This document shows positions 9,951 through 39,382 of a stretch of 39,382 nt of DNA, piece after piece. Source of the stretch: a virus. Each line of letters starts with the position of its first letter. Positions within the stretch are counted from its first letter, which is position 1. The notes beneath the pieces were generated by a model. The model did no database searches. It was given only the letters and a program-made list of their open reading frames with translations, and had not been told where the DNA came from. The stretch spans positions 1 through 39,382 of the IMG/VR virus record IMGVR_UViG_3300027763_001786, one strand, 5' to 3'. Made by a program: the position numbers and the translations under genes.

Positions 9951-9957
9951 ATAAATA
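9951..9957 (-). promoter_or_regulatory. TATTTAT start-proximal motif
   Basis: On the minus strand ATATTTATCTGT directly precedes the ATG at 9946 with a 4-base gap. That is too close for an ordinary -10 box feeding this start, so an RNA-level role is also possible. Confidence 0.35.
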
Positions 9958-9973
9958 TTATTTTTAATGTTTT

Positions 9974-11517: not shown

Positions 11518-11519
11518 GA

Positions 11520-12572: not shown

Positions 12573-12580
12573 ATCCGTAC

Positions 12581-14195: not shown

Positions 14196-14232
14196 TACTT
14201 ATAATTTATGAAATATAATAATAAAAGAAACA

Positions 14233-18182: not shown

Positions 18183-18183
18183 A

Positions 18184-18190
18184 ATAAATA
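18184..18190 (-). promoter_or_regulatory. TATTTAT start-proximal motif
   Basis: On the minus strand AAATATTTATT touches the ATG at 18182 with only one base between. It lies in the 12-base gap after the exostosin-like gene. Confidence 0.25.
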
Positions 18191-18194
18191 TTTT

Positions 18195-18965: not shown

Positions 18966-18970
18966 AATTA

Positions 18971-20038: not shown

Positions 20039-20039
20039 T

Positions 20040-23348: not shown

Positions 23349-23349
23349 A

Positions 23350-24051: not shown

Positions 24052-25259
24052 ACTATAGATTTATAAAATTCTGCTCTTGTTTTAGTTACAACATTTAAGT
24101 CATACGTGTCTTTTACTGTCTCATACAACCTTTCACCTAAATCATACGCCCAATTTGGGTTGTCAATAAGTTTCTTAACATATTTAAACCAATCACTATG
24201 ATTTCTACCTTCATCAACCAACAATGCATTACCGTCAACAAAATTACCGTGTTGTAATGAATGTTTCAAATCAATTGTGTACGGTCCTAAATTTGACGCA
24301 ATTAATGCTTTTTTGTAAAAACCTGCTTCAATAACTTTTAATTGGGATTTAACTCTGTTAAAAACGTGATTTTTAATTGGTGCTAAAGATACATCAAATT
24401 TTGTGTAGTTTTTAGCGTAAGTTTGAACGGGTCTTGTCCATACACGATGATAAAATTCATCATTAAACATGGAATCATCTTCTTCTTTAAATTTGTATAA
24501 AAATTTTTGATATTCAGGTGAAATCAATTTGTTATTATCTGTGAAAATATTTTCATACTTATACCAAACAGTTTCATCTGGTTTAATATCTCTCTTTGTT
24601 TGTTCTTTTGTATCGGCATTAATTTCCGTAACAGTACCTCTAATATCAAAACCACATAAAAAGGCTTGTGATTTATTTTTATATGGTTCCATTCTTTGAA
24701 AAACACCATCTAACAACATCAAATCATATAAATGTGATGAACCACCTAACCATCCAAATCTTAATTTTTCAGATTTTATTGTTGGTTCACAAAATTGTGG
24801 TTCTTTTGGGTTAATAGCGTTTGGTAATACAACAACATTTTTATTGTGTTTTTTAATTTCGTCTGCAAATAATTTTGTTGTTGTAATAACGTATTTTGCA
24901 ACACGTAAATTATCTAAAATTTTTTCATGGATTTTATGAACTCTAACTAAATCATGAATTGGGTGTTCTTTAGTCGGTAACCAATAATCGTCTAAATCCA
25001 TAATAGTTATAATACCTAAATTATTAAGCACCGGTATAAAATCTTTAGTGAATTCGTAGTTATTTCCAATAACACGGTGAAAATGTACTATTTGGTAATC
25101 TTTCCAAAAATTTAAATCATTTGACGGTGGGTCAAACATAATATCAACATGGAAATCATCAGGATATAAATTCTGTAAAAAAATGTGTGGGTCAACAGAA
25201 CGGAATTTTCCTACACCTGTTCTGTCAGATGGTAAAACTAAAACTTTGATTTTTGACAT
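24048..25259 (-). CDS. Glycosyltransferase, GT4-like (GT-B fold)
   Basis: The N-terminal half has VLVLPSDRTGVGKFRSVDPH with a Gly-rich acceptor-side loop and IVHFHRVIGNN. A short ITIMDLDDYWLP segment is characteristic of phage and bacterial GT-B relatives. The C-terminal half has LRFGWLGGSSHLYD, a Rossmann start, and VSLAPIKNHVFNRVKSQLK followed by VIEAGFYKKALIAS, the donor-binding helix and loop. The length of 403 residues is normal for the family. No membrane segment is seen. It is the first gene after a stem-loop at 25261-25293. Confidence 0.78.
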   Translation of the reverse strand: MSKIKVLVLPSDRTGVGKFRSVDPHIFLQNLYPDDFHVDIMFDPPSNDLNFWKDYQIVHFHRVIGNNYEFTKDFIPVLNNLGIITIMDLDDYWLPTKEHPIHDLVRVHKIHEKILDNLRVAKYVITTTKLFADEIKKHNKNVVVLPNAINPKEPQFCEPTIKSEKLRFGWLGGSSHLYDLMLLDGVFQRMEPYKNKSQAFLCGFDIRGTVTEINADTKEQTKRDIKPDETVWYKYENIFTDNNKLISPEYQKFLYKFKEEDDSMFNDEFYHRVWTRPVQTYAKNYTKFDVSLAPIKNHVFNRVKSQLKVIEAGFYKKALIASNLGPYTIDLKHSLQHGNFVDGNALLVDEGRNHSDWFKYVKKLIDNPNWAYDLGERLYETVKDTYDLNVVTKTRAEFYKSIV

Positions 25260-25260
25260 A

Positions 25261-25293
25261 AGTAAACTTTTTCATAATAATAGAAAGTTTACT
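25261..25293 (-). promoter_or_regulatory. 10-bp inverted repeat directly before a start codon
   Basis: AGTAAACTTT and AAAGTTTACT form perfect 10-bp arms around a 13-base loop. On the minus strand the stem ends one base before the ATG at 25259. No U tract follows, so it is more likely a translational or RNA-stability element than a terminator. Confidence 0.55.
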
Positions 25294-25308
25294 CAATAAA
25301 TCAAAGTA

Positions 25309-25920
25309 TTATCTCATCTTTTTAATTTTTGTTACTACACCTTCAAATACGTGTTGACCAACTCTGAAACTAATTTGTTCTTTTGTCTTAGATGAACTTT
25401 CGGCAACCAATCCTTTTTCTGTTAAAACTTCAGTGATTGTATCTCTAATAATTGATTTTAACAAACTATAATCAATACCAGAGACACTTGGTTGTTGGTG
25501 TTGTACTTGTTGTTGTCTTGGAATGTTTGATTCTTGTACATTACCTCTTGCGTCAGTTTTCATTAATCTTGCCGCAGCTTCAACAACCTCATTTGATAAT
25601 GTTGGACCACCCATATTGTTTGGTTTGTCAATTGGATGTTCCATCATCAATTTTTTAATTTCATCAGGTAATTTTGAATTTAAAATTCTATCCTTTGTTG
25701 GTAATTGAGGTGGCGTAGTTGGTGAACTCATCATTGGTTGAGATTGTTCTCCCATAAATTCTTGAGGGATGTTATATGTTGCTGGTGGTGCATTAAATTG
25801 TTCTAACATAGGGGATGATAACATTCCACCATTATTACCAGCTCTTGGTGTTTGATTATGGACATCCATAATTTTTTTAGCCACCACTAATTTATTCATT
25901 AAATCATTTTCTTTGTTCAT
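25309..25920 (-). CDS. Pro/Gln/Met-rich hypothetical virion-type protein, 203 residues
   Basis: The function is not recognised. Residues 1-20 are helical. Residues about 24-70 are a low-complexity Pro/Met/Gln/Ser region (QSQPMMSSPTTPPQLPTKDR). Residues 75-120 are helical, then a short Gln-rich stretch leads to DYSLLKSIIRDTITEVLTEK, with two T-E sites preceded by Ile or Leu. The C-terminal 30 residues look like a small beta structure (ISFRVGQHVFEGVVTKIKKM). The arrangement suggests an internal or scaffold-like virion protein, but there is no direct evidence. The gene is followed by a stem-loop. Confidence 0.62.
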   Translation of the reverse strand: MNKENDLMNKLVVAKKIMDVHNQTPRAGNNGGMLSSPMLEQFNAPPATYNIPQEFMGEQSQPMMSSPTTPPQLPTKDRILNSKLPDEIKKLMMEHPIDKPNNMGGPTLSNEVVEAAARLMKTDARGNVQESNIPRQQQVQHQQPSVSGIDYSLLKSIIRDTITEVLTEKGLVAESSSKTKEQISFRVGQHVFEGVVTKIKKMR

Positions 25921-25923
25921 ATC

Positions 25924-26319
25924 TTATGTTGTTGGTTGGTCAAATTTAGCAATAATTATAACTTGCGTCATACTTTTATCACCATTAAAGTTATAACCAG
26001 GTTTGGGTTCTGTAAAGACATCACGTAAATGTTTATACATAGTTATTTTATCTACACGAAATAATCTCCAAGAAGGTAATGGTTGTTCACCCTTATAAGC
26101 CGTATGAGAAGCTCCGGTTCTATCCCATCCTCTAAGAACCATATTACCCGCTTTAGAGCGACCTAAAGCAACAGGTTCTATTTCTCTTAAACCTTTACCA
26201 CCAGGTTCATCACCATTATAATAAATTGAGCATACTAATTTTTGGTCAATTGATTTTTTAATATCATCAATTGACGCTGCTTCAGTTATTAATGATTTTA
26301 ATGAACCAAGTAATTTCAT
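25924..26319 (-). CDS. WYL-like domain protein, 131 residues
   Basis: Residues 26-95 look like a WYL-type small beta domain: SIYYNGDE, REIEPVALG (compare R-x-I-x-P-x-x-L), VLRGWDRTG and WRLFRVDKI, the last matching the usual R-x-F-R-x-D-R-I pattern. WYL domains bind nucleic acid or nucleotide ligands in bacterial regulators. Here no DNA-binding domain is attached. Residues 1-14 (MKLLGSLKSLITEA) look like a T4 internal-protein targeting peptide ending at an I-T-E/A cleavage site. It could be a packaged protein that acts in the host cell on entry, or an ordinary regulator. Both are inference. Confidence 0.6.
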   Translation of the reverse strand: MKLLGSLKSLITEAASIDDIKKSIDQKLVCSIYYNGDEPGGKGLREIEPVALGRSKAGNMVLRGWDRTGASHTAYKGEQPLPSWRLFRVDKITMYKHLRDVFTEPKPGYNFNGDKSMTQVIIIAKFDQPTT

Positions 26320-26615
26320 TATACTTCTCCTCTTACGTTATAGGGTTTGTTCACTTGAAAAGCATTAAACTTAATATTCATTTTTCGTTCAAAAATATCT
26401 ACAGATGTTCCGATTGCGTCATTGTGAACATCTAAAAATACTCCCGTACCTCTACCTATTGCGTCACCATCCGCAAGAGCGTCAGGGTTTGTTGATGAAT
26501 ACACGTTACCTTGTTGGTTGTAGTCGTTTTTAACAATGTTTTTCTTTCTTTCAACATCAGCAATAGCTGTTAATCTATTTGGTGGTTGAGAAAAATCTAA
26601 TGGTAGTTGTTCCAT
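26319..26615 (-). CDS. Hypothetical protein, 98 residues
   Basis: This protein is not recognised. The first 15 residues are Pro-rich (MEQLPLDFSQPPNRL), followed by a polar middle with a Gly/Asp-rich turn region (ADGDAIGRGTGVFLDVHN). There is no Cys, membrane helix or signal peptide. It overlaps the WYL-like gene by one base and lies six bases after the upstream gene. Its setting suggests a small structural or assembly protein. Confidence 0.6.
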   Translation of the reverse strand: MEQLPLDFSQPPNRLTAIADVERKKNIVKNDYNQQGNVYSSTNPDALADGDAIGRGTGVFLDVHNDAIGTSVDIFERKMNIKFNAFQVNKPYNVRGEV

Positions 26616-26621
26616 AATTTT

Positions 26622-27092
26622 TTATAATATTTTTTTCATAAGATTATTTATCCTTTTAAGGCTTTCAGTTACTTGTAAATCATATTTTTCAATACTAGTT
26701 TTATTATCATCATATTGTGAAATGTTTTGATTAATATTAGCGTTTGGAATTTCAACAAACTCTTTTTCCATTCCAGTATCTTGTCTAATTTGTTTTGATG
26801 TTTCTAATGATTGTCTAGCACCTGATAATGTTGAGTTAACAAAATCTCTCATTTTGTTTTCACCGTTTAAAATAAAAGGTGCGTCTTGTGGAGTTCCCGT
26901 ATGATTGTCAAAAAAATTTTTAATTCTTTTTAATTCAGGATAAGATATTGATGTTGCAGTTTGTAATCTTTTATTACGATTAAAACCTTCAATATTGGAA
27001 TCAACATTTTTTACTTTTGCAAAACAAATTTTTAAATGATTTTGTAAATCATTAGGAAAATCCCAAGTTTTACCATAAAGTTCCTTATTCAT
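26622..27092 (-). CDS. Hypothetical protein, 156 residues
   Basis: This protein is not recognised. It is mostly helical and charged, with a start MNKELYGKTWDFPNDLQNHL that I associate loosely with hypothetical proteins of T4-like environmental phages. The middle contains NFFDNHTGTPQDAPFILNG, and the C-terminus is a basic amphipathic helix (LQVTESLKRINNLMKKIL). It overlaps the 274-residue gene by eight bases. A virion or packaging role is possible. Confidence 0.6.
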   Translation of the reverse strand: MNKELYGKTWDFPNDLQNHLKICFAKVKNVDSNIEGFNRNKRLQTATSISYPELKRIKNFFDNHTGTPQDAPFILNGENKMRDFVNSTLSGARQSLETSKQIRQDTGMEKEFVEIPNANINQNISQYDDNKTSIEKYDLQVTESLKRINNLMKKIL

Positions 27093-27909
27093 GTTTTAAA
27101 AGTTTTAAAATATCTGAATTACTTAGACCTTCTTTATCCGCCATTTTTTTAAGGGTTTTTAAATTTTTCATAAGTAATTTAGATGCGTTTATTTCTTTTG
27201 ATTGGACATCAGTATTTTTAGATTTTTTTGTTACCATATCTTCAAGAACTTTAATCATTTTTTCTTTTTGAACTTCTTTTAAACGTTTTCTTGTAAATGA
27301 ACCAGGTAATTTTTTCTTTTCTAATTTTGGGTCATAACCCATTTCTTTCGCTCTACCCACAGGGTCCTCAACACCAAGTTCTTTAAATGTTTCAATCGCT
27401 TCTTTAGCATTTTCACCCTCTAATTCGGTCTCATCAAAACCAAACGCTACGTGAGCATCAATTTCAGTGATTGCCGTTTCATCTTCCAATGACTCTCCAT
27501 AGTAAACACGATAACCACGTAATAATGGATTTCCAGCTTGTCTTGTGGCAAATACTGTTTGGTCCATAGTTTTGGTTGGTGATAATGTTGGGTCGTGAAT
27601 TGGTACTTTTGAATTACTAAAACTTCCATCAAAATCAACAAGTTCTTCTAACTCGTCTTTTTCAGGTGAAATTTTATTCATGATATTTTTAATATCTTTT
27701 TTAGAAAATCTTTTTTTAGATTTTAATATTTTTTCAACAACTAATTTTGTAATTGTTTCGTGAATTAGTGGTATACTAATTATTTCCTCCATAGTTCTTG
27801 CTTCTGATATAGTATTACTAACAGAAAAATAAACGTCTACAGTATCCTTCCTTTTCTTAAGGAAAAAATACTTATTATCATCATAATATTCGCGACCAAA
27901 TTCAATCAT
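27085..27909 (-). CDS. Hypothetical protein, 274 residues
   Basis: The function is unknown. The N-terminus is Tyr/Phe-rich (FGREYYDDNKYFFLKKRKD) and strand-like, followed by a helical part and an acidic Asp/Glu/Ser section near residues 82-100. The segment TVFATRQAGNPLLRGYRVYYG looks folded. The C-terminal third is strongly basic and helical (SFTRKRLKEVQKEKMIKVLE). The protein is the first gene of the leftward block and shares a 47-base divergent control region with the fibre gene. A virion-associated role is a guess from context. Confidence 0.62.
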   Translation of the reverse strand: MIEFGREYYDDNKYFFLKKRKDTVDVYFSVSNTISEARTMEEIISIPLIHETITKLVVEKILKSKKRFSKKDIKNIMNKISPEKDELEELVDFDGSFSNSKVPIHDPTLSPTKTMDQTVFATRQAGNPLLRGYRVYYGESLEDETAITEIDAHVAFGFDETELEGENAKEAIETFKELGVEDPVGRAKEMGYDPKLEKKKLPGSFTRKRLKEVQKEKMIKVLEDMVTKKSKNTDVQSKEINASKLLMKNLKTLKKMADKEGLSNSDILKLLKHE

Positions 27910-27925
27910 AGCGATTTTTTATACT

Positions 27926-27932
27926 ATAAATA
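27926..27932 (-). promoter_or_regulatory. TATTTAT motif for leftward gene / TATAAATA for rightward gene
   Basis: On the minus strand GTATTTATAG lies 16 bases before the ATG at 27909. On the plus strand the same bases, with 27925, read TATAAATA, the exact T4 late-promoter consensus, 24 bases before the fibre ATG at 27957. Confidence 0.5.
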
Positions 27933-27944
27933 CTACAACAAAAG

Positions 27945-27951
27945 TATTTAT
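27945..27951 (+). promoter_or_regulatory. TATTTAT motif before the fibre gene
   Basis: GTATTTATG lies five bases before the ATG at 27957. On the minus strand it reads ATAAATAC, 35 bases before the ATG at 27909, so a late-type box faces each gene. Confidence 0.45.
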
Positions 27952-27956
27952 GTCAT

Positions 27957-30900
27957 ATGGCTTACCAGAACATTAACCAATATGTCTATAAAAAATGGTA
28001 TTTAACACCTTTTTTAGAAGTTACGGACCTTTCTTTAGCTTCAGATGAACGAGATTATAACGAAGAAGTTATATTTTCACCATTAATTATTGGTTCTGAT
28101 GACGGTAATGTTTTACCAGTAAAATTTGATTTAAATTTTTCAGGGTCAAATCCAGGATTTATATTAGAATATGGTGATTATAACTATGATAATGTTTTAG
28201 TATCTGAAAATTATTATAATCCTGAAAATATTGCAATTGATTGTTTTTCAGCAAAAACTATTTGTGACATTGGATTGACAGGGACTGATAATGGTTTAGT
28301 AACCCAAATGACTGGTGAAACAATACAGTTCACTCAAGGTCTTGTTCCTGAATCTGAAAAATTTGAAAGACTAATATTTGATAGAAGATTAAAAATGTTC
28401 CAAGTTACAGGATATACTTGGGAACCAAATACAAGATTTTCTGGTGTTAGTGCTGGTACAATGTATGAAGTTGTTTCGTATTCGGCAAACTCTGTTGGAA
28501 TTTATCACGAATTATATGGTGGTTTTTATCAAGGGTTTTATGAATTATTTGGGTATGATTATAAAATCTTACCTGAAAGATATCCAAAAGGTTGGACGGT
28601 TGAAATGACATTAAAGCCTCGTTTTACAAATGAGTATACTCCAAGTTCAGGACAAACAACATTAAATCAATATTACCCCAATAATTCGGGAATATTCTTT
28701 TATATGGGTACTCGTGCTGAAAACAAATATTGGCATCACGCAGATGGAACAAATCCAACTGACCCCAACTATGTTAGAGTTACTGAAGAATTAACAGGTA
28801 TAACAACATGTGCTTGTGTTGATTTATATACAGGTTATACAACATCATCAACAACGGTATTTAATTTGTCTACAAGTGGACAAACATTGGAAGTTAGTCC
28901 TAATTTATTGTGGACTGCGGGTGATGACGTTTTAGTATACCATAATGAAGTCCAATATGTGATTGGTGTTGTTTTAGGATATACCGCAGAAACAGGTAGT
29001 TTACAATATCTAACAACAAGCCGAGTAGGTAGGGGAGATATTAATTTTTCAATTGTAACAAAAGTTGGTTATTTAAGTTACGCACATTCAAATTGTGTTT
29101 TAATTTATCCACCAACAGGAACAACGGATACACATTATCAAGTTGATACTTGTTGTTGTCCACCACCACCGCCACCAATACCAGAACACAATCCAATTTA
29201 TGATTCAATGTCCAATGCGTTGGCAATTAAATTTAGTGGTGACCCCCACAATCCAAAAATCTGTGTTAGAACTTTGACCATGACAGGTGATTGTATTTAC
29301 ACTGGTTCTTGTGAAACTTTGGGACCTGAGTCGGTTACAGGATATTCAATAAATAATTTTTGTTCTACAAGAGGAATTTACGATGATTGTTCGGGAACAA
29401 CATATAACACAAATGAACATTGGGTTTTAGTAGATGCGGTTTTTGAAAGGTATACATGGTTAGATTTTTGTGATTTATATTATCGTGGTGGATTGGGAAC
29501 AATAACAATTGACCCATACACTGCAAGTACACATCAAAATTCAGTTTCATTAATTTCACCACCAACAACACATTACAGATTAACACCTGTTAAAGAAGAA
29601 TTGGTTGAGTTAAATAATCTTTGGTTATTAGAAAAACATTACCGTAAAGGTAAGTTAAAACTTTATGTAAATGGAAAACATTTTCACACATTTGATAATT
29701 TTGAAGAAATTATTCCTCGTGGATTGTTTGGACATAAAGAAACTCAGGTTGGTGTACCATTTAACATATCTTGGGGTGGTGGAACTCAAGGATTACATGA
29801 AAACTTGATATTCAGCGCATTACCTGAAACTACAAATTATTATATTCAAGACCCTGAGGCATTCCCACCAAACATTTTAAGTGGAACAAGTTTAAGTGCG
29901 TTGACAACAAACATATTAATTGAACAAAATTTTGCTGGAACATTTGACGGAGCAATATCAACATTTGGTATGTACGCAAAACCATTATCGGTTCCTGAAA
30001 TTCAACACAACGCTAGAATATTAAAAGACAAATATGATTTGTTAAATCCATATTGTTTGGATTGTGCAACAACAATTAATTTGGGTTATGAATTAATACC
30101 TAATGATGATTTATTATATACTAACATTCCGGGAAATAATATAAATTCTTTGGATATTCCTAATGATGATTTATTATATGGTAATATTCCGGGAAACAAC
30201 ATAAATGCTTTGAACATTCCTAATGATGATTTATTATATGGTAATATTCCGGGAAATAATATAAATTCTTTGGATATTCCTAATGATGATTTATTATATG
30301 GTAATATTCCGGGAAACAACATAAATGCTTTGGACATTCCTATTGATGATTTGATTTATGGAAATATTCCGGTAAATAATTTGGGTTCTTTGGATATTCC
30401 AATTGATAATTTAATTTATAATGACATATTTGGTTTTACCCCAACTCCTACACCAACACCGACTATAACACCAACAATTGGTTTAACACCTACACCAACT
30501 CCTACAGGTACTTTAACACCAACTCCTACACCAACACCCGCAGGATTTAATCAAGGTCCATTTACATTTGATTTTGATTATATGTTATGTGAATATTATT
30601 TTACTGACGGTACAGACATGGATACAGTATCATATATGACAGTACCATCAATTATGGAAAGTACTAGTTCTGACCCTAACGCTATTGGACCAGTTAGTGG
30701 TAGTGGTAAGTATTACAATTATGTTGGTACTTGTGCAGTATCGGATAGTGGTCCTCAATTCCCTCTATCACCAACAACACCATTTTTAACTTATGGTGGT
30801 GATAATATAAGTGCAAGTGGTACTGAATCAGTCTTATTTGATTTGATTGAGTTTAAGAGTCAAAATCTTGGTATTGTAAATATCCAATTCGCCTTCACAG

Positions 30901-31133
30901 CTGATTGGTATGGTAATGTTGGTACTAACCCTATTTATATGAGGGCAACATTATGGAAAGGTGGTACACCAGTACAAGTTGGATTTACTTGGGAAAATAC
31001 AACCGCAACAGGAACATATTTGGTTGAGTCAAATGGTACCGTAACAACGTTGAATGTACAAAATTGTGAACCTTATGAATTAGTTTCAAATTTACAATAT
31101 AATATTAACACATATAACGGACAATTTATATGA
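27957..31133 (+). CDS. Large tail-fibre protein with tandem repeats and Thr-Pro linker
   Basis: A 1058-residue protein with the composition of an adhesin or tail fibre. Residues about 1-400 are beta-rich with many Gly/Thr/Tyr and end at a Cys/Pro cluster (CCCPPPPPP). Residues about 480-700 resemble a LamG/concanavalin-like jelly roll: KGKLKLYVNGKHFHTFDNF, then FDGAISTFGMYAKPLSVPEI. Residues about 715-828 are a 20-residue tandem repeat (IPNDDLLYGNIPGNNINALD). Residues 828-862 are a Thr-Pro linker. Residues 863-1058 form a C-terminal domain that may bind receptor or glycan. Attachment probably uses the N-terminus. It opens the rightward fibre locus. No intramolecular chaperone motif is recognised. 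Confidence 0.75.
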   Translation: MAYQNINQYVYKKWYLTPFLEVTDLSLASDERDYNEEVIFSPLIIGSDDGNVLPVKFDLNFSGSNPGFILEYGDYNYDNVLVSENYYNPENIAIDCFSAKTICDIGLTGTDNGLVTQMTGETIQFTQGLVPESEKFERLIFDRRLKMFQVTGYTWEPNTRFSGVSAGTMYEVVSYSANSVGIYHELYGGFYQGFYELFGYDYKILPERYPKGWTVEMTLKPRFTNEYTPSSGQTTLNQYYPNNSGIFFYMGTRAENKYWHHADGTNPTDPNYVRVTEELTGITTCACVDLYTGYTTSSTTVFNLSTSGQTLEVSPNLLWTAGDDVLVYHNEVQYVIGVVLGYTAETGSLQYLTTSRVGRGDINFSIVTKVGYLSYAHSNCVLIYPPTGTTDTHYQVDTCCCPPPPPPIPEHNPIYDSMSNALAIKFSGDPHNPKICVRTLTMTGDCIYTGSCETLGPESVTGYSINNFCSTRGIYDDCSGTTYNTNEHWVLVDAVFERYTWLDFCDLYYRGGLGTITIDPYTASTHQNSVSLISPPTTHYRLTPVKEELVELNNLWLLEKHYRKGKLKLYVNGKHFHTFDNFEEIIPRGLFGHKETQVGVPFNISWGGGTQGLHENLIFSALPETTNYYIQDPEAFPPNILSGTSLSALTTNILIEQNFAGTFDGAISTFGMYAKPLSVPEIQHNARILKDKYDLLNPYCLDCATTINLGYELIPNDDLLYTNIPGNNINSLDIPNDDLLYGNIPGNNINALNIPNDDLLYGNIPGNNINSLDIPNDDLLYGNIPGNNINALDIPIDDLIYGNIPVNNLGSLDIPIDNLIYNDIFGFTPTPTPTPTITPTIGLTPTPTPTGTLTPTPTPTPAGFNQGPFTFDFDYMLCEYYFTDGTDMDTVSYMTVPSIMESTSSDPNAIGPVSGSGKYYNYVGTCAVSDSGPQFPLSPTTPFLTYGGDNISASGTESVLFDLIEFKSQNLGIVNIQFAFTADWYGNVGTNPIYMRATLWKGGTPVQVGFTWENTTATGTYLVESNGTVTTLNVQNCEPYELVSNLQYNINTYNGQFI
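30101..30440 (+). repeat. 60-bp tandem repeat with 120-bp higher order
   Basis: About five and a half copies of a 60-bp unit encode IPNDDLLYGNIPGNNINALD. Units alternate between an S-L-D form and an A-L-N/D form, so copies one and two match copies three and four closely as a 120-bp block. Later copies are more diverged. Confidence 0.92.
30440..30542 (+). repeat. Thr-Pro codon repeat in fibre gene
   Basis: Tandem Thr-Pro codons form a linker between the 20-residue repeats and the C-terminal domain of the fibre. Confidence 0.75.
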
Positions 31134-31139
31134 CAATGA

Positions 31140-31146
31140 TATTTAT
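31140..31146 (+). promoter_or_regulatory. TATTTAT start-proximal motif
   Basis: GATATTTATTAAT lies 14 bases before the ATG at 31161 in the 27-base gap after the fibre gene. Confidence 0.35.
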
Positions 31147-31160
31147 TAATTAAAAATATT

Positions 31161-32243
31161 ATGTCATCAATAGAAGGAATCAGAATAACAAGTAGCAATT
31201 TAATAGGTAAAACATCAAATCCTACTACTTTTTCAGCAACAACAGGTGGAACCATTGTTAATTTGGGTGTGCAAACAATCCCGTTTAATTATTATTCGGA
31301 GTTTCCATATGGAACATATGATTTATTTATTACCGAATATCAAACACACTATCCTTTATTTGTACCTGAACCACCACCAGCACAATCAGCCTATACTGCA
31401 ACAGTAAATGCTGTCTTTAGTGGGTCTGTTCTATCTAGTTTTTGGGGTTCATACACTACGGGATACATACAAAACTTAGGTTTTGCCCCCGAAGATATTG
31501 TTTTTGCTGAAGGAATTTGTTCTGATGATGTTGACGCACCTGTATTTCAAGGAATTAACAATATTGGTCAGTTTCCAACATCAACAAACTCACTTCTTGG
31601 TCCATTTATGTCAGGAGGTTTAGCTGGTTACCCATTTGTTGGTCAAGTTGGATTGGGAGCTTGGGCGAGTCATATCACAACAGGTACAACTGCTTCAGGG
31701 GGTACATTGTTTATTACAAGTACACCACACATTGGAATTACATCGGGTGGGTCTGTTGGTCAAATTTTCCGTAGAGGTAATGTAAGCGGTACCACACCTT
31801 CAAGTACTTGTGGAGCTGTCGCTGGAGCAGTATCTTTAGTTACCGCATCTGGAGCAACACAACCACAATATTCGGGTTGGACAGGTGGTGGAGATTATGA
31901 ATTTTATTATCTACAAAATATCTTATGGCCTGAAAGAGCGGTATTATCAGGTATGACTTATGGTAACGCAATGAAATATGCGACTGAAACAATTAGAGAT
32001 AGTGCGAAAGAATTTTTACTTGATAAGTTACCTGCAGCAATTACTGGTGGAACCGCAAGTGCTTTAGGTACACCATCTCAAAATCCTGTATTTTTCTGTA
32101 ATGGTCTGTTTATTAATACTGACGATGGATATGAATCATATGTTCAAGTTGATGGTTTTTCATCTTACACATATAATAATTCAATATCGGCTGGTACTTG
32201 GACAGATATGACAACAGATTATCTTGCAGGTCTTCTATCGTAA
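31161..32243 (+). CDS. LCIB-type carbonic-anhydrase-like protein in the fibre locus
   Basis: Residues about 75-345 match the conserved pattern of the LCIB/LCIC family, diverged beta-type carbonic anhydrases first known from algae. Key pieces are EGICSDD (Cys120, Asp122), SGGLAGYPFVGQVGLGAW followed by ASH (His171), GTLFITSTPHIGIT (His190), VGQIFRRGN (Arg204/205) and SSTCGAVAGAV (Cys217). Cys120, His190 and Cys217 are the probable zinc ligands. Residues 1-74 are an extra beta-rich domain (IRITSSNLIGKT, YGTYDLFITEYQ) like those on phage fibre accessory proteins. It lies 27 bases after the fibre gene and before a LamG protein. It may be a virion-borne enzyme, a metabolic gene or a fold reused for binding. 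Confidence 0.75.
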   Translation: MSSIEGIRITSSNLIGKTSNPTTFSATTGGTIVNLGVQTIPFNYYSEFPYGTYDLFITEYQTHYPLFVPEPPPAQSAYTATVNAVFSGSVLSSFWGSYTTGYIQNLGFAPEDIVFAEGICSDDVDAPVFQGINNIGQFPTSTNSLLGPFMSGGLAGYPFVGQVGLGAWASHITTGTTASGGTLFITSTPHIGITSGGSVGQIFRRGNVSGTTPSSTCGAVAGAVSLVTASGATQPQYSGWTGGGDYEFYYLQNILWPERAVLSGMTYGNAMKYATETIRDSAKEFLLDKLPAAITGGTASALGTPSQNPVFFCNGLFINTDDGYESYVQVDGFSSYTYNNSISAGTWTDMTTDYLAGLLS

Positions 32244-32276
32244 AATTAAATTTTGTATTATTTTAGTATTTACAAC

Positions 32277-32283
32277 TATTTAT
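32277..32283 (+). promoter_or_regulatory. TATTTAT start-proximal motif
   Basis: CTATTTATATTTG lies seven bases before the ATG at 32291. A related TAGTATTTAC occurs a few bases earlier. Confidence 0.35.
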
Positions 32284-32290
32284 ATTTGTA

Positions 32291-33310
32291 ATGGCAAATT
32301 TAATATCATTTTCATCAGGAGCAACATTAGAAGGAACGTTTAGATTAACACCAAATATTCTTTATAGTGTTAATTACAATAATAGTTTATCAGGTTTAAC
32401 TTGGTGGAATGGTGTTGAACCAAATGGTGGATATATTCTTTATTCAGACCAAATTACACAAACACCTTATTTTTCAGCACCGACAATTTTAACCGCTTGG
32501 AGTTCTGATGATACAAATTCAAGTCTTTTAAATACAATTAATAGAGTACCTCAAAGAAGAGGTCAAACTCCTTTTTCAGCAATAACTGATGCGATTACAT
32601 GGATGACGGGAACACAAATGTATTCAATTGTCAACCAAAATTATCCACAAATTACAATGAGTGGTTTAACAATGATTGCCGATGCTGGATTTACAGCGTC
32701 TTACCCATTGGCGAATAATACAATTTATGATTTGTCGGGTAATGAGTATAATTTGGGGTTAATAAATGAACCAACATTTACCAATAACTATAGTGGTGAA
32801 TTTACGTTTAATGGTACTAACCAATATGCTCAAACAGGAATTATCACACCAAATATTGAACTAAGAACTTTAAGTGTATGGTGTAAATTAGGTAATACTG
32901 GAACCACATTAGAAGGTGTTTTCGGTATATCGGATGATAATGGAAACATATTTGATAGTATTGCTTATCGTGCACAAGGCGGAAATGGTTGGGGTGTTTA
33001 CGGTAACGTAGGAGGTAGAAGTTATTTTTCAAATATTGTTGAAACGGGTACAACACAATGGGTCAACATGGTTGCGACATACGCCGCTGATGGTGGTGGT
33101 TTAGTTAAATTATATAGAAATGGTGTTGAAATAATTTCACAACCAATGCCGCTTATAACTTATACAAATGCGTTATTTTATATGGGACAGGCCAATGATG
33201 GTACGTATTTATGGGATGGTCAAATTGCCTGTGGATTTATCTATAATAGAGCCTTATCTCAACAAGAAATTACTGACAATTATAACGCCTTATTATCAAG
33301 ATTTATTTAA
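32291..33310 (+). CDS. LamG/concanavalin-like virion protein
   Basis: Residues about 1-130 form an N-terminal domain of unknown fold with aromatic-rich GLTWWNGVEPNGGYILYSDQ. Residues about 135-339 form a jelly-roll lectin-like domain: YPLANNTIYDLSGNEYNLG, FNGTNQYAQTG, LRTLSVWCKLG, WVNMVATYAADGGGLVKLY then RNG, and YNRALSQQEITDNYNAL. This order is typical of LamG/Laminin-G-3-like modules that bind sugars on phage fibres. It is probably a fibre tip or side-fibre subunit that recognises surface glycans. It follows the LCIB-like gene with a 47-base gap. Confidence 0.75.
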   Translation: MANLISFSSGATLEGTFRLTPNILYSVNYNNSLSGLTWWNGVEPNGGYILYSDQITQTPYFSAPTILTAWSSDDTNSSLLNTINRVPQRRGQTPFSAITDAITWMTGTQMYSIVNQNYPQITMSGLTMIADAGFTASYPLANNTIYDLSGNEYNLGLINEPTFTNNYSGEFTFNGTNQYAQTGIITPNIELRTLSVWCKLGNTGTTLEGVFGISDDNGNIFDSIAYRAQGGNGWGVYGNVGGRSYFSNIVETGTTQWVNMVATYAADGGGLVKLYRNGVEIISQPMPLITYTNALFYMGQANDGTYLWDGQIACGFIYNRALSQQEITDNYNALLSRFI

Positions 33311-33314
33311 ATCT

Positions 33315-33343
33315 AATACTCAATAGTAGTATTCATCTTTTTT
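33315..33343 (+). terminator. Weak candidate terminator after the fibre locus
   Basis: AATACT and AGTATT form a six-base-pair stem with a seven-base loop, followed by CATCTTTTTT. The stem has only one G-C pair, so it is weak. The position, just after the LamG stop and before the glycan operon, is sensible. Confidence 0.35.
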
Positions 33344-33376
33344 ATTCTTATATTATTTTTATGGAAAAATATATTC

Positions 33377-34624
33377 ATGAAAATATTTGTTCAAATTGCT
33401 GCTTATCGTGACCCCCAACTTGTTGCCACTATCAAAAACATGATAGAAAACGCAAAGAAACCCAAAAATTTAGTAATTGGTATTGCAAGACAGTTTCATC
33501 CTGAAGATGGATTTGATGACTTGTCAGAATACAAAAATGATAAAAGATTTAGAATCCTTAACATTCCATATGAAGAATCAAAAGGTGTTTGTTGGGCAAG
33601 ACACCAAGTCCAACAATTGTATCAAGGTGAAGAATATACCCTTCAAATTGACTCACACATGAGATTTGCTCCCAATTGGGACGATGAGATGATTAAGATG
33701 ATTAAACAACTTCAAAAGAAGGGACATGAAAAACCATTGTTAACGGGTTATGTGTCTTCATTTGACCCCGATAATGACCCTGCGGGACGTACTCAAGAGC
33801 CATGGAGAATGGCGTTTGATAGATTTATTCCTGAAGGTGCGGTGTTCTTCTTACCTGAAACAATACCAGGTTGGAGAGATTTGACTGAACCTGTAACGGC
33901 TCGTTTCTATTCAGCTCACTACTGTTTTACATTAGGACAGTTTTCAAAAGAAGTACAACACAACCCTGAATACTATTTTCACGGTGAGGAAATATCAATT
34001 GCCGCTCGTGCTTACACTTGTGGTTATGATTTATTTCACCCTCATAAAATTTTGATTTGGCACGAATACACTCGTAAAGGTAGAACAAAACAATGGGATG
34101 ATGATAAAGATTGGGGAAACAAGAATAGTCATTCACATTTTACAAACAGAAAGTTGTTTGGTATGGATGGTGAAACTCAAGAAGGTCATGATGGACCTTA
34201 TGGTTTTGGTACAGTTAGAACATTAAGAGACTATGAAAAGTATTCAGGTCTTTTGTTTGAAAAACGTGCGGTACAACAATATACATTGGATAAGAATTAT
34301 CCACCAAACCCATATGATTTTGAATCTGAAGAAGATTGGAAAAAGAATTTTGCTCAAATATTCAAACATTGTATTGATGTTGGATTTGATAGGGTTCCTG
34401 AAAAAGACTACGATTTTTGGGTTGTTGCGTTCCATAATGAAAATGATGAAACAATCTTTAGAAAAGATGCTGATAAGTCGGAAATTGACAGGATGATGAA
34501 TGACCCTGACGGATATTGCAAAGTTTGGAGAGAATTCCAAACAGAACATAAACCTAAGTATTGGGTTGTATGGCCACACTCCATCTCTAAAGATTGGTGT
34601 GAAAGAATTACAGGGAATTTATAA
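33377..34624 (+). CDS. GlcNAc-transferase-like glycosyltransferase (GT60-type)
   Basis: A GT-A enzyme of the family that includes Skp1-type polypeptide GlcNAc transferases. Distinctive parts are IFVQIAAYRDPQLVATIKNM at the N-terminus, CWARHQVQQLYQGEEYTLQI with DSHMRF (Asp92, His94) as metal site, TGYVSSFDPDNDP, and YYFHGEEISIAARAYTCGYD (HGEE at 202-205), which holds the catalytic-type acid. The last 120 residues form a charged Asp/Glu-rich tail beyond the core. An out-of-frame ATG 16 bases upstream is not the start. This opens the second glycan operon and is coupled to the next gene by one base. Confidence 0.82.
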   Translation: MKIFVQIAAYRDPQLVATIKNMIENAKKPKNLVIGIARQFHPEDGFDDLSEYKNDKRFRILNIPYEESKGVCWARHQVQQLYQGEEYTLQIDSHMRFAPNWDDEMIKMIKQLQKKGHEKPLLTGYVSSFDPDNDPAGRTQEPWRMAFDRFIPEGAVFFLPETIPGWRDLTEPVTARFYSAHYCFTLGQFSKEVQHNPEYYFHGEEISIAARAYTCGYDLFHPHKILIWHEYTRKGRTKQWDDDKDWGNKNSHSHFTNRKLFGMDGETQEGHDGPYGFGTVRTLRDYEKYSGLLFEKRAVQQYTLDKNYPPNPYDFESEEDWKKNFAQIFKHCIDVGFDRVPEKDYDFWVVAFHNENDETIFRKDADKSEIDRMMNDPDGYCKVWREFQTEHKPKYWVVWPHSISKDWCERITGNL

Positions 34625-35568
34625 TGAAAAAAATTGCATTTCACGCTAATCAATTATCTTTGCGAGGAACTGAAATTGCCTTATTTACTTATGCAAAATA
34701 TAATGAAGAAATTTTAGGTAATAAAAGTGTTATTTTTAGTTCGCCAAATAATAATTTAGATGCGTTAAAAAAATTTCAAGACAGATTTGAAGTTAAATTA
34801 CTTCATTTCTATGAATATGAACAATATCTCACAGAAAACAACTTTGATTACCTATATGTGATTAAAGGTGGTGATAATGATGGTTTATGGGTAAACACAA
34901 CACCTACATTAGTTCATGCGGTTTTTAGAAATAATGACCCTCATGGATATAAATATTTTTATGTTTCAGATTGGTTATGTAAAGACCAAGGGTATTCAAT
35001 AGAAACACACTCACTTCCACATATTTGTGAAAAATTACCACCACCAAAATATAATTTGAGGTTAAAATTGGATATTCCAAAGACATCAAAAGTTTTTGGA
35101 TGTTATGGTGGTGCGACAGAATTTAACATACAGTCTGTTAAGGATGCGATTATTGACACGGTTAATAGTCGTGCGGATATTGAATTCATTTTTATGAATA
35201 TAAATGAATTTTATGACCATCCTCAAATAAAATTTTTACCAGGAACATATGATTTAGAAGAAAAATCGGCATTTGTTAATGCTTGTGATGCTATGATACA
35301 TGCAAGAAGTGGTGGTGAAACTTTTGGTTTGGCCGTGTCTGAATTTGCGTTAGAAAACAAACCAATTATAACTTATGAATTATCAGGTGAAAGAAGTCAT
35401 ATTGAAATATTAGGAGAAAGGGGTATATATTATAAGGGTAGAGAAGATGTATTTGATATTTTTAATAATTTAGAAAATTATATAAAATACAGTGATTATA
35501 ACACACCTTATTTACAATTCTCACCCGAAATAATTATGAATAAATTTAACAATTTTATACAACAATGA
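34624..35568 (+). CDS. Glycosyltransferase, GT4-like (GT-B fold)
   Basis: The N-terminus is typical (KKIAFHANQLSLRGTEIALF), with the R-G-x-E acceptor-side motif. The donor site is at residues 226-250: HARSGGETFGLAVSEFALEN followed by KPIIT, with Glu232 and Glu240 as the E-x7-E pair. The middle section KVFGCYGGATEFNIQSVKDA is a Rossmann start. The protein is 314 residues, at the small end of the family. It shares one base with its upstream neighbour and four with its downstream neighbour, indicating coupled translation. Confidence 0.82.
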   Translation: MKKIAFHANQLSLRGTEIALFTYAKYNEEILGNKSVIFSSPNNNLDALKKFQDRFEVKLLHFYEYEQYLTENNFDYLYVIKGGDNDGLWVNTTPTLVHAVFRNNDPHGYKYFYVSDWLCKDQGYSIETHSLPHICEKLPPPKYNLRLKLDIPKTSKVFGCYGGATEFNIQSVKDAIIDTVNSRADIEFIFMNINEFYDHPQIKFLPGTYDLEEKSAFVNACDAMIHARSGGETFGLAVSEFALENKPIITYELSGERSHIEILGERGIYYKGREDVFDIFNNLENYIKYSDYNTPYLQFSPEIIMNKFNNFIQQ

Positions 35569-36344
35569 AAAAAATTTTAGTTTCAACAATATCTTTTGTT
35601 AACACAGAAAAAACAGGTTCTGAAATATATACAACGTTTGCCAAAAGATTAGTTGACGATGTATTAACAAAAACTCATTATGATGTTATGGTTTCAACAA
35701 ATAAATCCGAATTATTTGGTGATGTTTCAAAATCTGATAGAGTTAAAATTAATCAAGTTGATTTAGGAAATCACCGTACACATGTAGGGGCGTTTAATCA
35801 ACTTTTAAAGTTTTACGCAATTAAAGATATTAGTCCAATATATGATTGGGTTTTATATTTAGATTGTGATGCTGGATTTATTGAACAAATAAACGTTGAT
35901 GACATTGAAAATTATTTAAATTCTTGTGAACTTGATGGATATGATATGTGTGCTTTAAGAACAGATGCTACATATAATCAGTCTGAAAAAGAATTTTTAG
36001 ATACAATAGATTTAAATGCATATCCAAGACCATTATTCAATCCTAAATTTATATTCTATGGTACTAATGACCTTTGGAAAGGAGCTGTACTACCAAGTGA
36101 ACACATTTTATTATTAAAAAATAATGAAAAATTACCACAAATGTCAAAATATTTTGAAGATTTTTGTACAAAATTTGAAACTCAAGAATCTAATAATATA
36201 ATAACATTTGATATGGAAGCGTTTGAAATTGGTGTTTCTGCTCATTTAGCAGGATTTAAAGTTAAAGAACTTGGTTGGGGAAATCAAACAGGTTTATTAA
36301 AAGTTGGGTTTAACTATAATAATTGGGAAAAAATAAAAATATGA
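35565..36344 (+). CDS. GT-A-like glycosyltransferase
   Basis: The protein starts MKKILVSTISFVNTEKTGSE, then YDVMVSTNKSEL. The metal site is DWVLYLDCDAGFIEQIN, with Asp100 and Asp102 forming DxD. A downstream part, YDMCALRTDATYNQSE, fits the acceptor side, and FDMEAFEIGVSAHLAGFKVK holds a likely catalytic acid. It is 259 residues with no membrane segment. The family is not pinned down; it resembles small DxD transferases in phage glycan clusters. The stop overlaps the ATG of the methyltransferase gene (ATGA). Confidence 0.68.
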   Translation: MKKILVSTISFVNTEKTGSEIYTTFAKRLVDDVLTKTHYDVMVSTNKSELFGDVSKSDRVKINQVDLGNHRTHVGAFNQLLKFYAIKDISPIYDWVLYLDCDAGFIEQINVDDIENYLNSCELDGYDMCALRTDATYNQSEKEFLDTIDLNAYPRPLFNPKFIFYGTNDLWKGAVLPSEHILLLKNNEKLPQMSKYFEDFCTKFETQESNNIITFDMEAFEIGVSAHLAGFKVKELGWGNQTGLLKVGFNYNNWEKIKI

Positions 36345-37132
36345 ATACATTAAAAACACAAACAGATAATTTTATAATTAACACATTACCTAATGATTGG
36401 AGTGGTGTTAGTATACATGGTAGTAAATCGTGGGAACCACATATTACTCAAATATTAAAACGAAATTTTAAATCAGATTCTGTATTTGTTGATGTTGGTA
36501 GTAACTACGGATGGCACTCAATTAAAAGTTCACCATTTTGTAGTGTAATTTATAGTTTTGAACCTCAAAAATATATTCACGATGTTCAAAAAATGAGTAT
36601 TAATGAAAATAATATTTCAAATATTCAATTATATAATTGTGGTATTGGTGACAAAAATGAAAATAAAGAAATGTCACCAATTGACTATGATAGTCCAAGT
36701 ATTCACATGGGAGATTTAAGTGTTGGTATTGGTGGAGAATCTATTGAGGTTAGAACATTAGATTCATTTCAAATTCCAAAAGTTGATTTTATTAAAATTG
36801 ATGTACAAGGATATGAAAAATATGTGTTAGAAGGTAGTAAAAACACGATTATGAGTTCTAAACCAACAATTATTATTGAAATGGAAGACCACCAACTTAG
36901 AAGATTTAATTATGGTGTTGTTGAATTATTTGAACAATTAAGAAATATGGATTATTACATTTATTTTTTAGACTATCATTATCCGTCTGACCATGTTTGT
37001 GTTCATAAAGATAATTTAAATGAATTTATACAAATTAATAGTCAATATATTAAACCATTAACTGAAAGTAATGATTTAAATCGTAATGTTGAGAATGGTG
37101 TAACTGAAAGGATTATTTATGACCAAAATTAA
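36341..37132 (+). CDS. FkbM-family methyltransferase
   Basis: A SAM-dependent O-methyltransferase, often acting on sugars. Motif I is VFVDVGSNYGWHS (residues 48-60), SFEPQKYIHD matches the FkbM F-E-P motif, and FIKIDVQGYEKYVLEGSK is the family signature (K-I-D-V-x-G-x-E). A TTG lies upstream at 36323, but the ATG at 36341 forms an ATGA overlap with the upstream stop and is the better start, giving 263 residues. It sits between transferase genes, suggesting methylation of the same glycan. It overlaps the GT10-like gene by 14 bases. Confidence 0.88.
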   Translation: MNTLKTQTDNFIINTLPNDWSGVSIHGSKSWEPHITQILKRNFKSDSVFVDVGSNYGWHSIKSSPFCSVIYSFEPQKYIHDVQKMSINENNISNIQLYNCGIGDKNENKEMSPIDYDSPSIHMGDLSVGIGGESIEVRTLDSFQIPKVDFIKIDVQGYEKYVLEGSKNTIMSSKPTIIIEMEDHQLRRFNYGVVELFEQLRNMDYYIYFLDYHYPSDHVCVHKDNLNEFIQINSQYIKPLTESNDLNRNVENGVTERIIYDQN

Positions 37133-37979
37133 AGTGTTAGGTAATTGGGACACATCTGAAAATATTACAGAGCGACTTTTAAAACAATTTAAAACACCTG
37201 AAATTGATTTAACAAATGTAGTATTTGTTTATGATGATTCATATGACATAATTGTATTTTTTAATCATGTTTGTTCAAATATTAAAGAAGGTGCGGTTTC
37301 ATATATGTTTCCACATGAACCAAGTTGGCATGGAACTCATCAAAAAAATTTAAAAAATGGAACAATTGTTTTTGGATTTAAAGAAGAGTTATATGAAGGT
37401 ACTTGTATTGAAACATTAGCCCACACTTTTTATGGTGGTCGTGGTCCTTGGGTAGACCCATTATCATTTTGGAATTATGAAAATTTAATATCAAGTGAAT
37501 TTGTTAAAACTAAAAACATTTCATCTTCAGTAACTAAAATTGATACTAATTATGGTGGTACTTGTTTATATCCACAAAGAAGTAAAATTGCTGATATGAT
37601 TGAAAACAACAATTTTATTGATTTATTTAATGGTAATAACTCAAGTCCTAAAAGACAAGATGCTCTTATTGATTATAGATTTAATATTGCCATTGAAAAT
37701 GAATATCAAGATAATTGGATAACGGAAAAATTTTATGATTGTATTTTAACGGACACAATACCCATTTATTTTGGTTGTAAAAATATTAAAGAAATTTATC
37801 CGGAAGATGGTTATATATTAATTGATAATATTGATAATCTTGATGAGATTAATGATTTATTAAAAAATATTAATCGTGATAGTGAAAAAATATACAAACA
37901 AAAAATTAATGGGTTAAAAGAAATAAAAAAAAGATACTTTAAAGAGTATAATTTATTAAAAAAAATAATAGAATTATAA
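37119..37979 (+). CDS. GT10-like (alpha-1,3-)fucosyltransferase
   Basis: The identifying part is at residues 186-220: YRFNIAIENEYQDNWITEKF followed by YDCILTDTIPIYFGC. It matches the GT10 pattern Y-x-F-N-[IV]-A-x-E-N-x-x-x-x-x-[WY]-I-T-E-K-x-[YF]-x-x-x-x-x-x-x-x-[IV]-P-[IV]-Y-x-G closely. The N-terminal half has AVSYMFPHEPSWHG, typical of the acceptor domain. GT10 enzymes normally use GDP-fucose. The phage's GMD/ColD cassette could supply GDP-fucose-like sugars such as GDP-colitose (3-deoxy-GDP-fucose), so this transferase is a candidate user of that product. There is no membrane anchor. Confidence 0.85.
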   Translation: MTKIKVLGNWDTSENITERLLKQFKTPEIDLTNVVFVYDDSYDIIVFFNHVCSNIKEGAVSYMFPHEPSWHGTHQKNLKNGTIVFGFKEELYEGTCIETLAHTFYGGRGPWVDPLSFWNYENLISSEFVKTKNISSSVTKIDTNYGGTCLYPQRSKIADMIENNNFIDLFNGNNSSPKRQDALIDYRFNIAIENEYQDNWITEKFYDCILTDTIPIYFGCKNIKEIYPEDGYILIDNIDNLDEINDLLKNINRDSEKIYKQKINGLKEIKKRYFKEYNLLKKIIEL

Positions 37980-37980
37980 T

Positions 37981-38610
37981 ATGGAATACGAAGACAAAGT
38001 TTACAAAAAATCAAGTTTAGAACATAATGATAGTATATCAACTTATGATGGTTGGGGAGCTCAACAGAATCCAAACGCATTTGAAGTGTTTTATAACTTT
38101 TTAAATGAAATTAAACCATTAAGAATTTTAGAAATTGGAACATCTTTGGGTGGATTTACATCCTTTTTAAATTACGCATCAAAAAGATTAAATATACCCT
38201 GTAATATATTGTCTTACGACATTTATGAAAAAGATTGGTATGCTGATATGGTAAATGAAGGTATTGATGTAAGAGTTGAAAATGTTTTTAATCATCATTA
38301 CACTGAAGTTAAACAAGAAGTAATTGATTTTATCAATCAAGATGGTATTACTTTAATACTCTGTGATGGTGGTAGTAAAATACACGAATTTAATTTATTA
38401 TCTGATTACATGAAAGTTGGTGATTTTATTATGGCTCACGATTATTCTGAAAATGAAGAAACATTTAAAGAAAATGTTTATATGAAAATTTGGAATTGGC
38501 ACGAAATTGCAGATAAAGACATACAAGACGCTTGTGATAGAAATAATTTAATTTCATATAATAAAGAAATTTTCAATACCGTTGCTTGGGTTTGTAAAAT
38601 AAAGGAATAA
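37981..38610 (+). CDS. Class I methyltransferase- or CmcI-like protein
   Basis: Residues about 45-65 hold a SAM-type motif I (LRILEIGTSLGGFTSFLNYA). LSYDIYE follows as the acidic strand end, and ITLILCDGGSKIHEFNLLSD plus YMKVGDFIMAHDYSENEETF resemble the cephalosporin hydroxylase/CmcI and Methyltransferase_24 groups. Proteins of this shape occur in polysaccharide clusters and are presumed sugar methyltransferases. It is 209 residues, one base after the fucosyltransferase-like gene and one base before the last gene. Exact substrate unknown. Confidence 0.72.
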   Translation: MEYEDKVYKKSSLEHNDSISTYDGWGAQQNPNAFEVFYNFLNEIKPLRILEIGTSLGGFTSFLNYASKRLNIPCNILSYDIYEKDWYADMVNEGIDVRVENVFNHHYTEVKQEVIDFINQDGITLILCDGGSKIHEFNLLSDYMKVGDFIMAHDYSENEETFKENVYMKIWNWHEIADKDIQDACDRNNLISYNKEIFNTVAWVCKIKE

Positions 38611-38611
38611 T

Positions 38612-39382
38612 ATGTCAATTACACTAGTAACTGGGCTTTGGAATATAAAAAGAGACGGGATATCTGAAGGGTGGTCACGTTCGTTTCAACATTATTTAGA
38701 TAAGTTTGAACAACTATTACAAGTTGAAACTAATATGATTATTTTTGGTGATTCTGAGTTAGAATCATTTGTGTTTGAAAGAAGGGACCGTAAAACTACA
38801 ACATTTATCACTCGTCCACAAGAATGGTTTAAAAATGAATTTTATGACAAAATTCAAGAAATTAGAACAAATCCTAATTGGTATAACCAAGCTGGTTGGT
38901 TATCAGAATCAACACAAGCAAAATTAGATTTATATAATCCATTGGTAATGTCTAAAGTATTTTTACTTAATGATGCGAAAATTATGGACGCTTTTGATTC
39001 CGAACAAATGTTTTGGATTGATGCTGGATTAACAAATACCGTACATCCAGGATATTTTACACACGATAAAGTTTTAAATAAATTATCAAAATATATAAAC
39101 AAATTTAGTTTTGTTTGTTTCCCATACGAAGCCAATACAGAAATACATGGTTTTACATATGACAATATAAATCAAATTGCGGGTACAAAAGTTGATATGG
39201 TTGCCCGTGGTGGTTTTTTTGGTGGTCCAAAAAGTTTAATTGGTGATATTAATGGGATTTATTATAACTTATTAAGTTCAACATTATCCCAAAATTTAAT
39301 GGGAACTGAAGAATCTATATTCACTATAATGTGTTATAAACATTCTGATATTATTGATTACTTTGAGATTGAAGGTAATGGA
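38612..39382 (+). CDS. HtrL/YibB (WlaTC-type) glycosyltransferase, 3' partial
   Basis: The reading frame starts at ATG 38612 and is open to the right edge, with 257 codons visible. The start MSITLVTGLWNIKRDG matches the HtrL/YibB pattern (T-x-V-T-G-x-[WF]-x-I-x-R). It is followed by TNMIIFGDSELESFVFERRD, then FLLNDAKIMDAFDSEQMFWI and WIDAGLTN (135-142), the acidic metal-site equivalent. The family includes WlaTC beta-1,3-galactosyltransferase-like proteins of lipooligosaccharide clusters. It ends the visible glycan operon, which probably continues beyond the window. Confidence 0.8.
   Translation, partial: MSITLVTGLWNIKRDGISEGWSRSFQHYLDKFEQLLQVETNMIIFGDSELESFVFERRDRKTTTFITRPQEWFKNEFYDKIQEIRTNPNWYNQAGWLSESTQAKLDLYNPLVMSKVFLLNDAKIMDAFDSEQMFWIDAGLTNTVHPGYFTHDKVLNKLSKYINKFSFVCFPYEANTEIHGFTYDNINQIAGTKVDMVARGGFFGGPKSLIGDINGIYYNLLSSTLSQNLMGTEESIFTIMCYKHSDIIDYFEIEGNG

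Follow-up and report, generated by a model that had tools for sequence, protein, structure and literature searches.

ORF 31161-32243 of a tailed-phage contig encodes a homologue of the LCIB/theta-type carbonic anhydrases (CAs). The explanation we favour, with moderate confidence, is that its product is an exchangeable zinc CA, probably active, which the virion displays; both virion presence and catalysis are inferred. Established here are the family, the fold, the complete set of active-site residues, the modular re-use of the domain, its insertion into another protein, the phage-only clade and the placement in structural gene cassettes. Many uncultured tailed phages join the LCIB domain to differing predicted tail, neck, baseplate or head proteins. 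The window is the whole stretch of DNA analysed, 39,382 nucleotides in length, and its features are listed in Table 1.

Table 1. Location of the features discussed in the text, with the evidence for each
Feature	Position	Strand	Basis
Window analysed (IMG/VR record IMGVR_UViG_3300027763_001786)	1..39,382
T4-type major head protein	18..1643	+	phrog_138, E 1.6e-58
Conserved structural-type protein, 492 aa, uninterrupted ("empty") form	4410..5888	-	homologue of L014/L015/L058 host protein
Repeat-rich, P/T-linker adhesin-/fibre-like protein, 1058 aa, directly upstream of LCIB ORF	27957..31133	+
LCIB/theta-type CA homologue fused to N-terminal beta module	31161..32243	+	360 aa, ATG start, P0001
N-terminal beta module, residues 1-74, predicted virion anchor/display unit	31161..31382	+	recurrence in related phages, model
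LCIB_C_CA domain, residues 81-360	31401..32240	+	Pfam, phmmer, model, Foldseek
Pfam-matched part of LCIB_C_CA domain, residues 103-333	31467..32159	+
Cys120 (predicted zinc ligand), Ser121, Asp122 (dyad)	31518..31526	+	conservation, PtLCIB4 alignment
His171, equivalent of PtLCIB4 His88	31671..31673	+	invariant in 76 viral and 53 cellular sequences
His190, predicted zinc ligand	31728..31730	+	invariant in 76 viral and 53 cellular sequences
Arg204, probably paired with Asp122	31770..31772	+	invariant in 76 viral and 53 cellular sequences
Cys217, predicted zinc ligand	31809..31811	+	invariant in 76 viral and 53 cellular sequences
LamG-type lectin-domain protein, directly downstream of LCIB ORF	32291..33310	+	PF13385 Laminin_G_3, E 3.4e-17

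Family membership and surroundings of the gene

The ORF matched the Pfam profile PF18599 (LCIB_C_CA) with an E-value of 7.3e-27 and 94.5 bits, against a cut-off of 25 bits, over profile positions 15-219 of 223. Among solved structures, phmmer recovered 6kfs (E 1.8e-15) and PtLCIB4 (E 2.2e-10), and with a profile built from phage members the E-value was 1.7e-27 for PtLCIB4 and about 1e-9 to 1e-8 for CrLCIB/CrLCIC. The 360-aa protein was modelled by AlphaFold2 with 58 sequences as input (mean pLDDT 88.3, pTM 0.82). When the model was searched with Foldseek, ranks 1-7 were all LCIB/LCIC, among them 6kfs (E 7.7e-16, TMt 0.86), and classical beta-CAs came next. Since profile, solved-chain matches, model and Foldseek agree, membership of the LCIB/theta-type family is near certain. 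Chance motif resemblance was ruled out by the Pfam and Foldseek matches.

The sequence-only reading had assigned the ORF to the LCIB/LCIC family from the motifs Cys120-Ser-Asp122, SGGLAGYPFVG, His190, RRG and Cys217. These motifs are correct, and the assignment held for profile, fold and full residue set. The same reading would have been refuted by the absence of a profile match, by a fold unlike that of beta-CAs or by a missing zinc site. The profile match is significant and the LCIB/beta-CA fold was found, so neither of these counts against it; the zinc site is supported by sequence alignment and not by three-dimensional geometry. It had also described a beta-rich N-terminus of 74 residues, and the model confirms this as six beta strands separate from the LCIB fold.

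The phage form resembles PtLCIB4 and 6kfs in fold, in the set of Cys-Asp, His, His, Arg and Cys, and in the Ser at the S47 position, but shares only about 20-29% identity with them. They have no phage module, whereas the phage form has extra insertions, a longer C-terminus and a clade of its own. CrLCIB/CrLCIC of Chlamydomonas belong to the same family and fold (TMt 0.70) and are more distant. LCIB-like proteins of Bacteroidota, Balneolota and Planctomycetota carry the same residue set and are the nearest sampled cellular sequences (identity in tblastn reaches 34% across almost the whole domain), but at 230-250 aa they lack the anchor and fall outside the viral clade (100/100).

The T4-type major head protein identifies the contig as a tailed phage. 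In tblastn, Microcystis phage Mel-JY01 (222 bits, 41%) and Flavobacterium phage immuto (215 bits, 44%) were among its nearest cultured relatives. The two are about equally near, and the host remains undetermined. The LCIB ORF is separated from its same-strand neighbours by 27 and 47 bases. The downstream LamG-type protein also matches phrog_8510, a virion structural protein (E 1.5e-10). The upstream protein has no match in Pfam, and its residues 942-1058 match phrog_24956, of unknown function (E 3e-7); homologues occur in 18 loci, and the upstream position is kept in relatives. Only its general character makes it adhesin- or fibre-like. The earlier description of the gene as lying between two fibre genes is therefore fair but partly inferred.

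The upstream protein contains an in-frame 60/120-base tandem repeat at 30099-30413, of the IPNDDLLYGNIPGNNINSLD type and about 5 copies long, which is followed by a P/T-rich linker; similar repeats are present in loci L002 and L003. Elsewhere in the window, nucleotide-sugar genes at 14233-17410 on the minus strand (UDP-glucose dehydrogenase-like, epimerase, aminotransferase) and glycosyltransferases at 24048-25259 and 33377-35568 suggest modification of surface or virion glycans.

An invariant active site in a phage-only branch

A single-protein scan of IMG/VR returned close copies of the ORF, and profile scans returned 67 and then at least 94 viral LCIB loci, which comprise 76 unique proteins. 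A genome collection yielded 56 cellular loci, chiefly from Bacteroidota and Balneolota. In two maximum-likelihood trees all viral sequences grouped behind one branch with 100/100 support, and a long branch, of about 1.7-2.1 changes per column, separates them from all sampled cellular members. Five diverse LCIB queries gave no match at all among 50,697 cultured-phage records, PHROGs had no match for the domain, and BFVD gave no usable viral match for the protein. For the sampled sequences, viral LCIB is thus a phage-only branch that so far is metagenomic. A mis-binned host gene was considered and rejected: the window encodes a T4-type head protein, other viral contigs carry near-identical loci, and the clade is viral-only.

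Six residues (Cys120, Asp122, His171, His190, Arg204 and Cys217) are invariant across 53 viral and 53 cellular domains, and none of the 76 unique viral proteins in an enlarged set departs from this. Two fragments in that set stop short of Cys120; Cys120 and Asp122 are kept in 74/74 viral sequences that reach the site and in 53/53 cellular ones. This holds although pairwise identity among the 53 viral domains falls to about 33% (median 53%) and no more than 15 columns are invariant in viral and cellular domains alike. Nine of these are additional to the six residues and hold Gly, Pro, Ala, Phe or Asn319; every charged or metal-binding column among the 15 belongs to the active site, Asn319 being the only other polar one. 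As the viral search patterns contained the CSDD and GGLAG stretches, the way in which hits were found adds some bias to the conservation seen for Cys120 and Asp122, but that of His171, His190, Arg204 and Cys217 is unaffected. His171 and Arg204 had been overlooked by the sequence-only reading.

By alignment, the PtLCIB4 counterparts of Cys120/Asp122, His190, Arg204 and Cys217 are Cys46/Asp48, His102, Arg116 and Cys126, in a numbering derived from the S47R and H88A mutant positions. His88 and Ser47 are the positions mutated in PDB entries 5b5z and 5b60. Ser121 corresponds to Ser47 and is likewise small; the position is Ser or Ala in every viral member and never the Arg of the S47R mutant. From the sequence we infer Cys120, His190 and Cys217 to be the zinc ligands, in the order typical of the LCIB family, their geometry in three dimensions being unmeasured. 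One His and two Cys also hold the metal in theta-CAs (PMC8132391). The pairing of Asp122 with Arg204 as the dyad Arg is likewise inferred, by analogy with beta-CAs. Ala126, which aligns with PtLCIB4 Arg52, was considered as a lost catalytic Arg and rejected, as Arg52 varies in cellular members and Arg204 is invariant. Known LCIB structures are homodimers with the active site near the interface.

Among near relatives, dN/dS of the LCIB domain is 0.06-0.25, and it lies below that of the anchor module in nearly all pairs compared. Changes specific to the viral clade do occur near the site, namely Gly118, Asp123, Thr/Met188 and an insertion near 133-140. PtLCIB3/4 are apparently constitutively active, and CrLCIB is reported without measured in vitro activity (PMC9614477); family membership is therefore no proof of activity. 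We consider CA activity of the phage domain likely but unproven, since it is inferred from strict conservation and dN/dS without an assay. The sequence-only reading had left open an enzyme or a re-used fold. The low dN/dS together with the invariant site favours the enzyme, as it is unlike the pattern of a diversifying receptor-binding tip.

Carriers of the LCIB domain

Relatives of the N-terminal module were collected with a single-sequence query. In related phages the module begins neighbouring proteins without LCIB, including a 682-aa protein and P/T-repeat proteins, and in one case it is joined to a C-terminal papain-type peptidase (PF00112, E 1.2e-5). It also forms stand-alone ORFs of 75-127 aa. 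Genes bearing the module lie in series, several per locus, downstream of homologues of the 27957-31133 protein. Because it occurs on such varied neighbours, the module acts like a display unit whose cargo can be exchanged. That its partner proteins are part of the virion is inferred from gene context.

The peptidase-bearing protein (L004:9669-11051, 460 aa) ends in a Peptidase_C1 domain in which the catalytic Cys, His and Asn are visible. If displayed in the same way, this virion protease would be a second cargo of the same anchor. Examples of the module without large cargo are L039:13065-13325 (86 aa), L039:14231-14458 (75 aa) and L010:724-1107 (127 aa).

In three loci (L014, L015 and L058) an LCIB domain of ~280 residues is inserted in a homologue of the 4410-5888 protein, after 'SFDLILFRIPE'. 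The resulting proteins are 776 aa long in L014 and L015, and that of L058 is truncated by the contig end. Compared with the uninterrupted protein of the window, L014/L015 are 58-65% identical ahead of the insert and 59-62% past it. The flanking genes of these loci are syntenic with those of the window, the major head proteins being 74-76% identical. Two empty-site relatives, L175 and L207, have no insert and are 85-92% identical on both flanks. IMG/VR holds 382 relatives of this protein, of which the 80 retained match across its normal length. A model of the L014 chimera was of low confidence (pLDDT 43), and we set aside its Foldseek matches, which were generic beta sandwiches of very high rmsd. 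The 4410-5888 protein accepts the 280-residue insertion after residue about 112, which is a candidate virion surface loop; the role of the protein is unidentified.

Overall, the domain is carried on at least eight N-terminal contexts (about eight by our count), and the tree requires at least ten changes of context, with second tandem copies treated as a state. First or only copies bear extra N-termini, and two kinds of these are common to other proteins of the same phages. For instance, the L060 protein begins with the N-terminus of another neighbour-type protein, at 81-87% identity. The LCIB gene of L067 lies between an Ad2 neck gene (phrog_211) and tail sheath/tube genes (phrog_23, phrog_4542). 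Those of L226 and L231 adjoin head genes (T4-type in L226), Ad2 neck genes and genes with the motif 'KGS-LT-DGNF', which we take to be fibre-type. In L222 and L238 the domain occurs in a capsid-gene cassette, where a portal gene was confirmed for L222, and the head protein of L222 resembles those of crAss-like and Cellulophaga phages. Judged by these cassettes (phrog_138 head, phrog_23 sheath, phrog_211 neck), the phages hosting LCIB are T4-type, or crAss-like in L222/L238. The domain was present in 1/24 large records with scaffold or module, a count limited by incomplete records, which marks LCIB as accessory.

The crAss-like head protein was also seen in L224. In all three loci (L222, L224 and L238) the LCIB gene has the major head gene on one side and further structural genes on the other, and the crAss-like virion is of a wholly different type from that of the window. 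Two LCIB genes in tandem, the first anchored and the second not, were observed in L056:9590-11656, L069:9647-11702, L215, L232 and L233. Both copies retain all six active-site residues. Formation of a hetero-oligomer, as with LCIB/LCIC, is possible.

Proposed virion attachment, rival explanations and meaning

We regard a virion location of the LCIB protein as likely; it is inferred from gene context without virion proteomics. The sequence-only reading had suggested attachment from a single locus. Other phages now support it independently, through the module common to non-LCIB neighbours, the insertion in a structural-type protein, the neck, tail and capsid cassettes and the unrelated N-termini; it has not been shown physically. 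The unanchored second copies of the five tandem loci are evidence against display. That related phages carry or lack LCIB, on differing particle proteins, marks it as exchangeable accessory cargo.

In the favoured explanation, the beta module would fix the protein to the tail-fibre/adhesin assembly of a T4-type phage, and the C-terminal LCIB/theta domain would face outward, very probably as a dimer, as inferred from other LCIB proteins. Zinc on Cys120, His190 and Cys217 would activate water, with Asp122-Arg204 as gate and His171 aiding proton transfer, and CO2 and bicarbonate would be interconverted where the particle contacts the host envelope. For certain hosts or pH/CO2 conditions the cargo would probably aid adsorption or entry, and a local shift in protons, pH or bicarbonate may help fibre deployment, adsorption or entry; these benefits are speculative. 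A bolder reading, on which we could argue either side equally well, is that an old phage-only LCIB/theta branch serves as active, exchangeable cargo on T4-like and crAss-like particles, i.e. at least two unrelated virion types, and that phages thereby act on CO2/bicarbonate/proton chemistry at the surface of the host while they adsorb or deliver their genomes.

The strongest rival, which remains possible, is that the LCIB fold has been re-used on the fibre for binding a receptor or co-ligand, the old site being a zinc/anion pocket without meaningful catalysis. The position of the gene among lectin-type and P/T-repeat proteins, its accessory distribution and the precedent of CrLCIB without measured activity would fit this. 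Against it, Asp122, Arg204 and His171 are not needed for metal binding and yet are invariant across 76 proteins, and dN/dS is low and mostly below that of the anchor module, unlike in fast-evolving receptor tips. We find it unlikely that the gene is instead an intracellular auxiliary metabolic gene supplying the infected cell with bicarbonate/CO2, its proximity to fibre genes being incidental. The plain cellular homologues of about 230-250 aa and the unanchored tandem copies speak for such a role. It is contradicted by the extra N-termini of first or only copies, two kinds of which are shared with proteins of the same phage, by the three domains sitting inside a conserved structural-type protein and by the neck-sheath and capsid cassette positions in unrelated phages. 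Lowest in rank, and very unlikely, is a virion-borne catalyst of a reaction other than CO2 hydration, e.g. a zinc lyase or hydrolase acting on a host-surface molecule. Reactions such as COS or CS2 hydrolysis can also take place on beta-CA folds, and the long branch of the viral clade and its specific changes near the site would agree with this possibility; every site residue invariant among cellular LCIB members is retained, which speaks against it.

In the open-licence literature searched we found no description of a CA on a phage virion; that limit makes the absence weak evidence. The papers examined that mention CA alongside phages dealt with gel standards, a plasmid gene or community metagenomics, and not with virions. 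The LCIB family itself is known. Its phage-only branch as exchangeable virion-type cargo was not found described in this literature, PHROGs, BFVD or the cultured-phage records.

Phage tails carry virion-associated depolymerases, peptidoglycan hydrolases and sialidases. The proposed CA would likewise be brought to the host surface on the particle, but those enzymes degrade polymers and a CA acts on small molecules. If virion display is true, phage particles would bear a small-molecule gas/pH enzyme besides polymer-cutting enzymes, and CA would have been recruited onto many different structural proteins. Our analysis also reveals a modular display system, in which a 75-aa beta module is combined with CA, a protease or some different cargo, and shows where a conserved phage protein naturally accepts an inserted domain. 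The enzyme family, which is of interest for CO2 capture, gains a deeply diverged branch. Should the favoured explanation be correct, control of phage adsorption and entry by inorganic-carbon or proton chemistry at the cell surface would become directly testable.
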